A stretch of 64,000 bases of DNA. Source: Actinomycetota bacterium. GTDB taxonomy: Bacteria > Actinomycetota > UBA4738 > HRBIN12. The translations under genes were made by a program, and so were the position numbers. The stretch covers positions 186,001 to 250,000 of the forward strand of contig DASQWI010000011.1 of NCBI GenBank assembly GCA_035640355.1. Reading direction: 5' to 3'. How positions within the stretch are numbered: position 1 is the stretch's first letter; each line of letters starts with the position of its first letter. Under the pieces are notes generated by a model that was not told the DNA's origin, ran no database searches, and saw only the letters and a program-made list of their open reading frames with translations. Of this stretch, positions 8,302 through 57,692 are shown one piece after another.

Positions 8302-9638
8302 CGCGAGACCTCAACGAGCTCGCGGCCGTGGCGGTGGCGGCGGCACGCGATGGAGAGGCCGTCGAGGCCTATGCCGAGGAGTCGAGGCACACGGATGTCG
8401 AAGCGCGAAAAGGCGAGGTCGAGGGCCTTACCTCGGCCGAGAGCCGCGGCCTCGGAGTCCGGGTGATCGCCGGCGGCCGGCTCGGATTCGCGTACGTCGC
8501 CGACCCCAGTGACGACGAGATCGTGGCCGCGGTCGAGCGTGCGCGGGAGAACGCGACGCTCGGGACCGAGGACGAGAACAACGTGCTCGCGGACGCCAGC
8601 GACTACGAGCCGATCGAGGGACTGTTCTTCGACGAACAGGCCGCGATGGCGGCCGACGACAAGGTCTCGCTCGCCCTCCAGGTCGAACGCGTGGCGGTGA
8701 CGTCCCACCCCAACGTGGGCAAGGTCGAACAGTGCGGGTTCGGCGACGCGATCGGCCGTGTGGCCATCGCGTCGACAACAGGCGTGTCGGCGGAGTTCCG
8801 CAGGACGGGATGCTGGTGCGTCGCCGTCACGCTCGCAGAGCGTGACGGCGACACCCAGACGGGCTTCTCGTTTCAAGTCGCTCACCGGGCGGCGGATCTC
8901 GACCCGAACGGGGTCGCGGGCGAGGCCGCTGAGCGCGCCGCGCGGATGCTGGGCGCGGTGAAGCCGCAGACGCAGCGCGTTCCGGTGCTCCTCGATCCCT
9001 TCGCGGCGTCGTCGTTCCTCGGCGTGCTCGCCGGAGCGCTTTCCGCCGAGTCGGTGCAGAAGGGACGGTCGTTGTTCGCGAACCTCGTCGGGGAGCGCGT
9101 CGCCGCCGACGTCTTCACCCTCGTCGACGACGGCCGGCTCCTGGATGGACCCGCGGCAGCGCCGTTCGACGACGAGGGCGTTCCGGCGGGGAGGACCGAC
9201 CTCATCGGCGCCGGCGTGCTGAACGGCTTCCTCCACAACACGTATACCGCGCGCCGGGGCTCTACGACGTCGACCGGCAACGCGAGCCGCGCCGGATACC
9301 GCTCGACACCGGGCGTCGGCGCCACGAACTTCTACCTGCAGCCGGGATCGATGTCGTTCGAATCGCTGCTGGCGCAGGCGGATGGCGGTGTGCTGATCCA
9401 GGACGTCTCGGGCGTGCATTCGGGTGCGAACCCCATCAGCGGGGAGTTCTCCGTGGGCGCCACCGGACTTCGCATTGCCGGCGGTGCGCTCGGTGAGCCC
9501 GTTCGCGAGATGACCATCGCCAGCACGCTGCCCGACATGCTGAAGTCCGTGGCGGCCGTCGGCCCGGACCTTCGGTTCTTCTCGTCGGTCGGCACACCCT
9601 CGATCCTCATCGGCGAGATGACGCTCGCGGGCGTCTGA
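8298..9638 (+). CDS. pmbA: TldE/PmbA family protein, partner of TldD
   Basis: A 446-residue TldE (PmbA) homologue. It has the same fold as TldD but lacks the HExxxH zinc motif, as expected for this non-catalytic partner. Family segments include RKGEVEGLTSAESRGLGVRV near the start, DGRLLDGPAAAPFDDEGVPAG, and the ending SGVHSGANPISGEFSVGATG. The start overlaps the tldD stop (ATGA). The protein should form a heterodimer with TldD and help enclose the proteolytic chamber. Confidence 0.93.
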   Translation: MTRDLNELAAVAVAAARDGEAVEAYAEESRHTDVEARKGEVEGLTSAESRGLGVRVIAGGRLGFAYVADPSDDEIVAAVERARENATLGTEDENNVLADASDYEPIEGLFFDEQAAMAADDKVSLALQVERVAVTSHPNVGKVEQCGFGDAIGRVAIASTTGVSAEFRRTGCWCVAVTLAERDGDTQTGFSFQVAHRAADLDPNGVAGEAAERAARMLGAVKPQTQRVPVLLDPFAASSFLGVLAGALSAESVQKGRSLFANLVGERVAADVFTLVDDGRLLDGPAAAPFDDEGVPAGRTDLIGAGVLNGFLHNTYTARRGSTTSTGNASRAGYRSTPGVGATNFYLQPGSMSFESLLAQADGGVLIQDVSGVHSGANPISGEFSVGATGLRIAGGALGEPVREMTIASTLPDMLKSVAAVGPDLRFFSSVGTPSILIGEMTLAGV

Positions 9639-48664: not shown

Positions 48665-49981
48665 TCAGCTCGAGCGAGGACCGTTCCTCTCGGACTCCTG
48701 ATAGGCGCGGTCCAGCAGCTCGATGGGATGAACGACGCGGACGTCCGCGCCGAGCTCCCGCACGCCGGCCGCGATCTGCATCGTGCACCCCGGGTTCGCG
48801 CTGGCGACGACGGCGGCGCCGGTCGACACGACGGCCTCGGCCTTCCGCCTGCGGAGCTCCGACGACATCTCGGGCTCGACGACGCTGTAGAGACCGGCCG
48901 CGCCGCAACAGACGTCCCCGTTCGGCACGTCGACGACCTCGAGTCCGGGGATCGTTCGCAGCACCGACCGCGGCTGTTCGCGGATCTTCTGGACGCGGAG
49001 GGCGTGGCACGCGTCGTGATAGGCCACGCGGTCGACGCCCGCGCCCGCCGTCGGACGTTCGAAGCCCTCGTCGGCCAGCAGCTCCATCACGTCGCGTGCC
49101 TTCGCAGACAACGCGTGCGCGCCGTCGGTCCCGAGGAGCTCGCCGACGTCGGTCAGGTGCGCTCCGCAGCCCGCCGCATTCGCCGCGACGAAATCGGCGT
49201 CGGCGAAGGCCCGCACGTTGTGATCGGCGAGCCGTCGAGCGGTGTCCAGTCTGCCGTGGTGCGCCGAAAGGGCTCCGCAGCAGTGCTGCGCGCGCGGCAC
49301 CACGACATGCCATCCGTTCCGCGCGAGGACGCGGATCGTCGAGCGGTTCACCTGCCGGTACCAACGATCTTGAACGCAGCCCGACAGCAGCGCGACCGTG
49401 CCCTTCGCCTCGCCGCGTGGCCGCGTCGCTTCGGGGAGCCGCCGGAGCAGCTCGGTTCGCTTCGGGACCATCGCGCGAACGCGTTTCGGCATGAACGCCA
49501 CGCCGATCGGTTGGAGTGCGGCAGCGAGCCACAGCAACTTCTTGCGTGGCAACGTCACGTCGAGCCCGAGCCATCGGACGAACCGCGCGCGTCGGGAACG
49601 GAGCGGTTCGATCTGCGTGCGCGCGTGCTCCATCATCCGCCCGAACGGGACGTGCGATGGGCACACGTCCTCGCACGCTCGACACGCAAGGCAGAGATCC
49701 ATGAATCCGGCGAACGTGTCGTCGACGTTCGCCACGCCCTCGTTCACCGCGCGCATCGCGGCGATCCGGCCTCGTGGCGAGGCCGACTCCTCGCCGGTCA
49801 GCCGGTACGTCGGGCAGTGCGGAAGGCACAGCCCACACGCGACGCACGAGGAGAGGTCGGCCGTCGTCGGCGCGTCGGCCACGACCGGCCAGCGCGGCTC
49901 GGCGCCCGGGAGCGGACCGATGAACCGCGCGCCCTCCGGCATCTCCGCGCCGAGCGCGGTTCGTTCGTTCGCCATGTCCAT
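48665..49981 (-). CDS. glcF: Glycolate oxidase iron-sulphur subunit GlcF
   Basis: About 438 residues. Two 4Fe-4S motifs, SSCVACGLCLPHCPTYRLTG and MDLCLACRACEDVCPSHVPF, are followed by two cysteine-rich CCG-type domains (LLSGCVQDRWYRQVNRST with AQHCCGALSAHHG, and AYHDACHALRVQKI with GDVCCGAAGLY). GlcF carries electrons from the GlcD/GlcE flavoproteins to the quinone pool during glycolate oxidation. It is third in the order glcD-glcE-glcF. Starts in frame are GTG 49987, ATG 49981 and ATG 49975. A perfect palindrome covers this start region and a possible -10 box. Confidence 0.93.
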   Translation of the reverse strand: MDMANERTALGAEMPEGARFIGPLPGAEPRWPVVADAPTTADLSSCVACGLCLPHCPTYRLTGEESASPRGRIAAMRAVNEGVANVDDTFAGFMDLCLACRACEDVCPSHVPFGRMMEHARTQIEPLRSRRARFVRWLGLDVTLPRKKLLWLAAALQPIGVAFMPKRVRAMVPKRTELLRRLPEATRPRGEAKGTVALLSGCVQDRWYRQVNRSTIRVLARNGWHVVVPRAQHCCGALSAHHGRLDTARRLADHNVRAFADADFVAANAAGCGAHLTDVGELLGTDGAHALSAKARDVMELLADEGFERPTAGAGVDRVAYHDACHALRVQKIREQPRSVLRTIPGLEVVDVPNGDVCCGAAGLYSVVEPEMSSELRRRKAEAVVSTGAAVVASANPGCTMQIAAGVRELGADVRVVHPIELLDRAYQESERNGPRSS

Positions 49982-50012
49982 CTTCACGGCGATGCTATCG
50001 CCGTGAAGATGG
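49978..50012. promoter_or_regulatory. Perfect 16-bp palindrome over the glcF promoter/start
   Basis: Arms at 49978-49993 and 49997-50012 are perfect inverted copies around GCT. The centre contains TAGCAT on the coding strand (49992-49997), a -10-like box, so the palindrome is well placed as a dimer-binding operator. As RNA it could also fold over the start codon. Confidence 0.6.
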
Positions 50013-50082
50013 GAGACCCGGACGAACGCCGCTCAGCCGGTGTTCTGACGACCCGCCGCGACGCCGTTGATCGTTGTCGCGC

Positions 50083-51138
50083 TCAGACCCCGCCCCAACC
50101 CCGGCCGGGCGCCAGCACGCCGTTCGGATCAAACGCCGCCTTCAGTCGTCGCTGGACCTCCGGCGCGGGTATCGGATCCTCCCCTAGGCCGCCGGGCCCA
50201 CGGATCACCGGGCCGATCCCGCCGGCCTCGTGCACCCGCCGGCGAAGCGTGTCGAGCGGAGCGTCGGCGTGATCGAGACCCACCCAGGCGATCCCCACGC
50301 CGACGAGTGCGCTCCAGCGGTCGCCGTCGACGACGTCGCCGAGCCGCGACGGCGTGACCGCGACTTCCGCGACGACCGGAGCCTCGTCCCACGGGCTCGA
50401 CAGGGGGAACGGAGCATCGTCTGCCTCATCCACCGGTTCTGCGACATCACGCGCGGCGAGCGACTGCTCGTCCACCTCAGCGGTCCAGCCCTCCAGTCGA
50501 AGCTCCACACCGTCCGGCGTCGCGATGATGCCGGCCGCCGCCGGCACCGCGTCGAGGAGCGCGGTTGCCATCGTCAGATCGCCACCGAATCGAAGCGTCC
50601 GCCGGCGTTGTGGGAGCGGACGGACCTTGAGCGCAACCTGCGCGATGACTCCGAGCGTGCCGAGCGAGCCGGAGAGGAGCTTGTGCACGTCGTAGCCGGT
50701 GACGTTCTTCACGGTTCGCGCGCCGCTGCGAACGAACCGGCCGTCGCCCGTCACCACCTCGGCCTCGAGCACCGTATCGCGGAGGGGCCCGAGCTTGAGC
50801 CGTCGCGGGCTCGAGGCCGAGCTCGCGACGACTCCGCCGACGGTCGCGGCATCCGGCGCGTCGGCGGGCCACTCCTGTCCGCCGCCCGCCAGGAGACTCC
50901 GAAGCGTGCCGACCCTCATGCCGGCCTCGACGACGGCGATCATCTCGGCCGGCTCGTACGCGATGAGCGCATCGAGCTGCGTCGTCCACAGCTCGCCGTC
51001 GACGTCGGAAGGGTTTCCCTTGTCGAGATGCTGCCCGCCGCCGACGACGAGCACACGTCGTCCGTCGGCGTTTGCCCGACGAACCTCCTCAACGAGGTCT
51101 CGCTTCGTTTGCGGGTGGATCCGCGGAACGGGGGTCAC
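50083..51138 (-). CDS. glcE: Glycolate oxidase FAD-binding subunit GlcE
   Basis: A 351-residue FAD_binding_4 protein. RVLVVGGGQHLDKGNPSDVD, the segment AVVEAGMRVGTLRSLLAGGG and DAATVGGVVASSASSPRRLK lead to the FAD site KNVTGYDVHKLLSGSLGTLG. It partners GlcD and GlcF to oxidise glycolate to glyoxylate. GTG 51138 overlaps the glcD stop (GTGA). The C-terminal AFDPNGVLAPGRGW is the usual family ending. Confidence 0.92.
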   Translation of the reverse strand: MTPVPRIHPQTKRDLVEEVRRANADGRRVLVVGGGQHLDKGNPSDVDGELWTTQLDALIAYEPAEMIAVVEAGMRVGTLRSLLAGGGQEWPADAPDAATVGGVVASSASSPRRLKLGPLRDTVLEAEVVTGDGRFVRSGARTVKNVTGYDVHKLLSGSLGTLGVIAQVALKVRPLPQRRRTLRFGGDLTMATALLDAVPAAAGIIATPDGVELRLEGWTAEVDEQSLAARDVAEPVDEADDAPFPLSSPWDEAPVVAEVAVTPSRLGDVVDGDRWSALVGVGIAWVGLDHADAPLDTLRRRVHEAGGIGPVIRGPGGLGEDPIPAPEVQRRLKAAFDPNGVLAPGRGWGGV

Positions 51139-52598
51139 AGCCAGGCGCCTTCGGGAAGCTCGGCGGCCGCGCGCGCCGCGTCGTCCCCGCGCGCCATGGC
51201 GAAGTCACCGCATCGAGCGCCATCGGGAAGGACCTTCAGTGGGTTCATCCGGGCGTCGGGATCGAACGCCGAGCGAACGCACGCCTGCGCCGAGAGATCC
51301 TCGGCGGTGAACACGAGGGGCATGAAGTCCCGCTTCTCCAGACCGATGCCGTGCTCGCCGGAGAGCGCTCCACCGGCATCGACGCAGAGCCGGACGATCT
51401 CCTCGCTCGCGGCGAGAACGCGCTCGAGCGTTCCCGGAACGGTTCGGTCGAACGAGAGCAACGGATGGAGGTTGCCGTCGCCCGCGTGGAACACGTTCGT
51501 CACGATGAGGTCGTGACGGTCGGCGATGTCGTACACGCCGGCGAGGACGTCGACGAGCTTGGACCGCGGTACGACGCAGTCGTGGAGGTGGTAGTGCGGC
51601 GCGATCTGAGCAACCGCGCCGAACGCCGACTTCCGCCCCTTCCAGATCAGCGCCGCTTCGGCTTCGTCCGCCGCGACGCGGATCGTTCGAACGCCATTGG
51701 CGCTCGCCGCCGACTCGACCGCGGTCGCCTGCTCCTCGACCGCGGCCTCCGTGCCGTCGACCTCGACGATGAGGATCGCGGCGGCGTCGGTCGGGTAGCC
51801 GGCGTGCGCGAACCGCTCGGCGGCGACGACGATCCCATGGTCCATCATCTCGACGGCGGCAGGAACGACCCCGCTCGCGATGATCGCCGAAACCGTTGCG
51901 GCGCAGTCGCCAACGGTATCGAAGTCGAGCAGCATGGTCCGGATGGCCGGCGGCAGGGGCGTCAGCCGGACGCACACGGCGGCGACGACGCCGAGCGTTC
52001 CCTCCGACCCGACGAAGACTGCTCGAAGGTCGTAGCCGGCCGCCTCGGGGCCCTCGGAGCCGAGCCGTTCGACGGTCCCGTCGGGCAGGACGACGTCGAG
52101 CGCGAGGACGTGGTTCGACGTCACGCCGTAGGCCAGGCAGTGCGGTCCGCCGGCGTTCGTGCTGACGTTGCCGCCGATCGAGGATGTCTGCTGCGACGAC
52201 GGGTCTGGCGCGTAGGTGAACCCGTACGGGCGGAGAGCGTTCGCCAGGTCGAGGTTCGCCAACCCCGGCTCCACCCACGCGATACGATCGGCCGGACGAA
52301 CCTCGATGAGGTCGGTCATCTTCGACGTGACCACCACGAGCGCGTCCCCGATCGGCGTCGACCCCCCGGCGAGGCCGGTTCCCGAGCCGCGCGGCACGAT
52401 CGGCAGGCCGTGCTCGCCGGCGATACGAACGCACGCGACCACGTCCGATAGTCGTTGGGGGAACGCCACGAGCGCGCATCCACCCTCGACGAGCGACGCG
52501 TCGCGCGCGTACAGACGGAGGGCGAGCGGATCGGAGAGGACCTCGGATTGACCGAGCGCTCCCTCGAGTGCGCGACGTGCTGCCTCGACGTCGGCCAT
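51135..52598 (-). CDS. glcD: Glycolate oxidase FAD subunit GlcD
   Basis: A 487-residue FAD-linked oxidase (vanillyl-alcohol oxidase fold). The FAD signature VPRGSGTGLAGGSTPIGDAL, then SSIGGNVSTNAGGPHCLAYG, AVFVGSEGTLGVVAAV and the C-terminal NVFHAGDGNLHPLLSFDR, GALSGEHGIGLEKRDFM and AFDPDARMNPLKVLP all match GlcD. It is the first gene of glcDEF. ATG 52598 is the first in-frame start. Related D-lactate dehydrogenases cannot be excluded, but the E and F partners favour glycolate. Confidence 0.94.
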   Translation of the reverse strand: MADVEAARRALEGALGQSEVLSDPLALRLYARDASLVEGGCALVAFPQRLSDVVACVRIAGEHGLPIVPRGSGTGLAGGSTPIGDALVVVTSKMTDLIEVRPADRIAWVEPGLANLDLANALRPYGFTYAPDPSSQQTSSIGGNVSTNAGGPHCLAYGVTSNHVLALDVVLPDGTVERLGSEGPEAAGYDLRAVFVGSEGTLGVVAAVCVRLTPLPPAIRTMLLDFDTVGDCAATVSAIIASGVVPAAVEMMDHGIVVAAERFAHAGYPTDAAAILIVEVDGTEAAVEEQATAVESAASANGVRTIRVAADEAEAALIWKGRKSAFGAVAQIAPHYHLHDCVVPRSKLVDVLAGVYDIADRHDLIVTNVFHAGDGNLHPLLSFDRTVPGTLERVLAASEEIVRLCVDAGGALSGEHGIGLEKRDFMPLVFTAEDLSAQACVRSAFDPDARMNPLKVLPDGARCGDFAMARGDDAARAAAELPEGAWL

Positions 52599-57659: not shown

Positions 57660-57692
57660 ACGAGGGGCGGCCGCACAGCGGCCGCCCCTCGT
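57660..57692 (+). terminator. Strong hairpin between the binding-protein and permease genes
   Basis: A 14-bp GC-rich stem (57661-57674 / 57678-57691) with a 3-base loop, then TGTTTG. It may partly end transcription or protect upstream mRNA, so that the binding protein is made in excess over the permeases. Confidence 0.65.

Follow-up and report, generated by a model that had tools for sequence, protein, structure and literature searches.

Perfect palindrome at the start of glcF

A perfect inverted repeat lies across the start of glcF, the gene of the iron-sulphur subunit, in the stretch of 64,000 nucleotides that was analysed here (the window). The locus raises the question of whether this symmetry serves regulation or arose in another way. 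An earlier note on this DNA had read it as a repressor operator that controls the iron-sulphur subunit separately from glcDE, or as an RNA switch. To answer the question, we examined the repeat within its own genome (G000), in the sister species G001, which is 67% complete and is the only other genome of the genus compared, and in wider relatives.

On recheck, the 16-base arms with a 3-base centre that had been reported at 49978-50012 were exact: CCATCTTCACGGCGAT and ATCGCCGTGAAGATGG are perfect reverse complements of each other around the centre GCT. The positions of the repeat and of the features around it are given in Table 1.

Table 1. Features of the glc locus in the window, in coding-strand order
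Feature	Position	Strand	Basis
glcD, FAD-linked oxidase subunit	51135..52598	-	PF02913 and PF01565
glcE, FAD-binding subunit	50083..51138	-	PF01565
Deletion junction, 7 unaligned bases replacing 2,636 nt of G001 (L114 426-3061)	50075..50081	-	blastn stops at L114 3062 and resumes at 425
Remnant of ppc (PEP carboxylase), last 13 codons (TINGVAAGRQNTG) and stop	50033..50074	-	alignment to the 3' terminus of the complete G001 ppc
Conserved block CCGGGTC, 17 nt before the -10 box; may be a weak -35 region, no TTGACA match	50015..50021	-	block and 17-nt spacer length identical in G001
5' arm of the palindrome (coding strand)	49997..50012	-	outer 9 bases differ from G001; 9 mismatches in an 11-base stretch, no length change
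TAGCAT, inferred -10 box of the glcF promoter	49992..49997	-	TANNNT enrichment near starts; kept in G001
3' arm of the palindrome (coding strand), holds the glcF start codon	49978..49993	-	one substitution and one gap relative to G001
glcF, iron-sulphur subunit; start revised to ATG 49981	48665..49981	-	Pfam CCG and Fer4 domains

Judged by composition, about 0.001 repeats of this kind (arms of at least 16, loop of 0-12) would be expected in 64 kb, and 0.05 in the 2.79-Mb genome. We then studied a sample of 356,399 bases of G000, made up of the window and 17 further stretches (L117-L133); this sample contained 22 perfect inverted repeats with arms of at least 11, and among them the glcF palindrome was the longest. 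Because 12 of these 22 repeats had arms of at least 13 and five besides the glcF palindrome reached 15, while three block-shuffled copies of the sample held no perfect arms above 12, long perfect hairpins are a common class in this genome, and the glcF palindrome tops this class rather than being an isolated freak. Perfect 15-bp palindromes with a 3-base loop were also seen at 57660-57692, where the repeat begins 20 nt past a stop codon, and at 8820-8852, 29 nt past the stop of one gene and flagged by the simple gene caller as lying within a called gene.

A genome-wide search for the palindrome, which the earlier note had suggested as a check, found no second copy at up to 3 mismatches, and a repeat family or mobile element was ruled out on this ground. 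BLAST with the 201-bp region likewise gave no second match except that of the palindrome against itself on the opposite strand. Single arms at up to 2 mismatches matched 24 places in the genome, both own arms included, versus one for the reversed control pattern, and a half-site regulon built on single arms is conceivable. No description of a glcF palindrome element was recognised in the literature, as judged by titles and the beginnings of abstracts.

A probable near-leaderless promoter in the centre of the palindrome

TAGCAT is read on the coding strand (49997-49992) and covers the 3-base centre together with the innermost bases of the two arms. We examined how such boxes are placed in the genome, using gene calls from a simple custom GC-position caller, not a curated annotation, for this and for the stop-codon statistics below. 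TANNNT was found at 64 of 6,153 positions 6-12 nt before an in-frame ATG or GTG, versus 47 of 18,459 at 16-36 nt (odds ratio 4.1, P about 2e-13). TAGCAT itself occurred 18 times on both strands of the sample; eight copies, that of glcF among them, end 6-12 nt before starts, and three fall within genes, against about 15 expected if the copies followed the 81% coding share of the sample. The box of glcF stands 10 nt from ATG 49981 in the window and 9 nt in G001, within the enriched zone and off its peak of 6, and this distance predicts a leader of a few bases. The locus thus has what a near-leaderless TANNNT promoter would present, namely a box about 6-12 nt from the start at a position enriched in the genome. 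Neither a sigma-70 consensus pair nor a -35 consensus was found at the glcF promoter, and visual inspection of the 10 nt ahead of ATG 49981 showed no Shine-Dalgarno sequence.

As had been claimed, one arm overlaps possible glcF starts: the left arm covers GTG 49987 and ATG 49981, and a third in-frame ATG (49975) falls just outside it. ATG 49981 was chosen because its ATG GAC is an in-frame start common to G001, where GTG 49987 does not keep the frame and ACG stands in place of ATG 49975. Judged from this alignment, glcF probably starts at ATG 49981 and would have a near-leaderless mRNA. Based on conservation and the genome statistics, TAGCAT looks like a true -10 box, in line with the earlier suggestion, and glcF looks to have its own promoter, separate from glcDE. 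All eight start-proximal TAGCAT boxes read TAGCATC, possibly an extended -10 or discriminator preference of the lineage.

A ppc gene lost between glcE and glcF

In G001, an intact ppc gene (892 aa; PF00311, E 5e-254; contig 71, L114 387-3062), ending in TINGVAAGLQNTG, lies between glcE and glcF. Alignment with the window indicates that ppc is deleted from the glcE-glcF gap there, except for its last 13 codons and stop. No PEPcase was found elsewhere in G000 (97% complete) with either the G001 protein or the Pfam family, the Pfam control being positive in 7 of 14 known genomes; a PYC_OADA domain and a GTP-type PEPCK were both not found in G000. The genome has an ATP-type PEPCK at C17:83875-85218. 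In G016, which belongs to another genus of the family, ppc follows glcF on the same strand at a distance of about 0.9 kb (contig 5, 786846-791583), so the two genes have been neighbours more than once.

An assembly artefact behind the ppc deletion and the palindrome was considered unlikely, because the sequence is continuous in a 302-kb contig, each codon of the remnant corresponds to the end of the G001 ppc, and a fold-back artefact would be expected to be longer than a perfect 16-bp repeat. The locus offers a clean natural case of operon remodelling, in which an anaplerotic gene was lost inside a glycolate-oxidase operon and a subunit gene was kept on a putative promoter of its own.

The core is conserved and the arms are not

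The window and G001 share exactly the 17-bp core CGGCGATAGCATCGCCG, the ATG GAC start, CCGGGTC and the 17-nt length of the spacer, and a 7-bp inverted repeat centred on the -10 box (CGGCGAT-AGC-ATCGCCG) is present in both genomes. In the outer 5' arm, 9 of 9 bases pair in the window versus 0 of 9 (ungapped) in G001, with no indel, and the alignments around the palindrome have an overall identity of 85-94%. At a background divergence of 10-25%, at least 9 mismatches of 12 would arise by chance with a probability of 2e-7 to 4e-4. By this comparison, the putative promoter is conserved between the sister species and the long palindrome is not.

Among 27 genomes of the order, the exact 17-bp core was found in two, both of the window's genus. 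When one mismatch was allowed, 8 of 17 family genomes matched, with 10 matches including the two exact ones. The one-mismatch core CGGCGATCGCATCGCCG was seen at G001:C179:7042, G002:C74:2456, G003:C32:46439, G004:C43:21295 and G014:C98:738, with none for the reversed control. The regions upstream of 18 loci (14 genomes and four copies) were read by eye, and the palindrome core was seen only in G001. A similar -10 box precedes ATG in G003 (TAACATCGCC) and GTG in G004 (TAGCATCGCC), in both cases without alignable flanks, and may reflect consensus rather than homology. A scan of public genomes gave 80 loci; four of them (L008-L011, identity above 60%) were compared and the 76 below 50% identity were left out, and the upstream sequences of L008-L011 repeat those of G010, G011, G003 and G005. 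The earlier note had held that a lack of other occurrences and of conservation in relatives would speak against its reading: this is what we found for the arms, and it does not apply to the core and the promoter.

Repressor operator, RNA switch or former terminator

If the palindrome were the operator of a glycolate- or lactate-responsive repressor, the protein would cover the -10 box and so shut off glcF transcription. A palindrome centred on -10 is a classical position for a repressor, and the 17-bp core is kept in both genomes of the genus; however, the genome holds one copy only at up to 3 mismatches, the exact core is absent from the other 25 of the 27 order genomes, even the sister species does not keep the arms, and part of the symmetry of the core comes from the promoter itself, TAGCAT being followed by C in all eight start-proximal cases. 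Neither further copies at co-regulated genes nor conservation of the palindrome, by which an operator in general could be recognised, was found. The operator motif of GntR/FadR-type regulators is described in PMC4494728 as TKGT and ACMA boxes separated by 3 nt (GT-N3-AC). Of the window's 10 matches to TKGT-N3-ACMA, none lies between 48,181 and 55,826, and TGGTNNNACCA at up to 1 mismatch has no match near the palindrome, which is not what a GlcC or LldR operator would show. No regulator was recognised among the 10 proteins scanned (nine window genes from 46.6 to 54.9 kb and the G001 ppc), the window proteins beside glcDEF being ACT, metallo-beta-lactamase, rhodanese, macro, ABC ATPase and tryptophan dioxygenase proteins. 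We consider an operator highly improbable, and of the proposal that glcF is controlled separately from glcDE, the part that stands is the glcF promoter of its own, as indicated by the TANNNT statistics and its conservation in G001, while the repressor operator is not supported.

RNA folding bears on whether the glcF leader acts as an RNA switch or thermometer and in this way governs access to the start codon. AUG 49981 is predicted to be paired with a probability above 0.99 in the read-through RNA and below 0.04 in the own-promoter RNA, and the 51-nt hairpin of the window (-30.7 kcal/mol) folds far better than shuffles (z -5.6). Against such a switch, no Rfam family matched at the palindrome, the sole match in the window being a tRNA; the inferred transcript start falls inside the hairpin, so that RNA made from the own promoter is predicted to start past the 5' arm and to be unable to fold in this way; and the sequence of the stem is not conserved. 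A perfect 16-bp stem of about -31 kcal/mol would also be too stable for the easy opening that a thermometer needs. The chance that the element is an RNA switch appears very slight. Taken together, nothing supports the repressor operator or the riboswitch, and both are unlikely.

The main rival is a former ppc terminator, because in the window as well as in G001 the hairpin starts 20 nt downstream of the ppc stop. According to this explanation, a terminator without a U tract has outlasted the deletion of ppc, with the glcF -10 box in its loop and a stem that is under selection, and G001 carries a diverged version of it. Perfect stems of at least 10 bp were found within 75 nt after the stops of 7 of 307 genes, versus 6 of 1,562 coding windows (P = 0.002, in the sample), four other long perfect hairpins start 16-22 nt after a stop, and G001 has an imperfect hairpin at this place with a different arm sequence. 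Hairpin terminators without a U tract occur in high-GC bacteria. However, there is no U tract on either strand after the stem and no terminator-like site, as would mark a canonical intrinsic terminator, and a strong terminator that used the start codon of the next gene as its 3' arm would be unusual. The G001 hairpin is also only weakly exceptional (-22.2 kcal/mol, z -2.8 and 1 of 200 shuffles as good over 50 nt; z -1.1 and 23 of 200 over 66 nt), and two genomes were available for the comparison of stems. We regard a former terminator as possible, and would put it forward tentatively.

The terminator and promoter readings are not mutually exclusive. A single 35-bp element might even serve two opposing functions. 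As RNA it would terminate the upstream unit (ppc, now glcDE); as DNA it would carry, in its loop, the -10 box for near-leaderless transcription of the next gene, whose start codon lies in the descending arm. Such an element would silence read-through RNA, would be created and repaired by template switching, and would here have outlived the deleted gene; we think this combination rather unlikely. If the overlap of terminator and promoter is real, very little DNA would be needed to shield a leaderless gene from transcripts that read through from upstream.

A probable promoter within a proposed template-switch palindrome

Our preferred explanation, which we consider reasonably probable, is that the near-leaderless promoter of glcF lies inside an inverted repeat that was made perfect by a template switch, and that glcF is expressed mainly from this promoter. 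TAGCAT would direct a glcF mRNA that starts a few bases before ATG 49981. Most simply, a template switch at the 7-bp repeat during replication would have copied the 3' arm, which contains the -10 flank and the start codon, over the promoter spacer, which would be free in sequence but held to a length of 17 nt. The element lies 20 nt past the stop of the ppc remnant. Read-through RNA from glcDE would fold into the 16-bp stem and hide the glcF start, whereas the transcript from the own promoter, without the 5' arm, would stay open. In this way glcF would be expressed mainly from its own short transcript and be insulated from glcDE.

A template switch is favoured because the clustered change mirrors the other arm exactly as its reverse complement, at all nine outer positions in the window and at none in G001, which would be a further coincidence unless the arm had been copied. 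The change may have run from an imperfect to a perfect arm, as read from the two genomes of the genus, the family genomes being too diverged upstream of glcF. We counted against a template switch that G001 forms a longer imperfect hairpin at the same place, which could mean that the hairpin is selected. As the source of the perfect symmetry, a by-product of replication or an old terminator is more likely than a repressor site. The locus shows that a perfect palindrome over a promoter, however striking, is not necessarily an operator: what is conserved here is the -10 box, the length of the spacer and the start codon, while the arms have changed wholesale between sister species.

Comparison with known systems

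Like the U-tract-less terminators of high-GC bacteria, the glcF hairpin has a GC-rich stem and a tiny loop and lies 20 nt past a stop codon; unlike them, it has lost its upstream gene by deletion and holds the start codon of the next gene in its 3' arm. It also differs from the operators of GlcC and other FadR-type regulators, which carry the TKGT and ACMA boxes that the glcF palindrome lacks.

Leaderless genes in Actinobacteria and Deinococcus-Thermus are described in PMC3160421 as having a TANNNT box whose first T lies about 12 nt before the start. The glcF gene resembles the genes described there in its high-GC genome, a TANNNT near the start, and the lack of a recognisable -35 and of a Shine-Dalgarno sequence. 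It departs from them in its wider spacing: counted from its first T, TAGCAT lies 16 nt ahead of ATG 49981, so glcF probably has a short leader of a few bases instead of none.

In E. coli, it is established that a template switch can convert a quasipalindrome into a perfect palindrome (PMC7202029), and template switches have been proposed as a source of RNA hairpins (PMC8794818). Unlike the E. coli mutations described in PMC7202029, the glcF case is deduced from two sequences and is not an observed mutation. It is like the quasipalindrome template switches described in both reports in its clustered change of several bases, the lack of any change in length, and a perfect repeat beside a pre-existing short stem.
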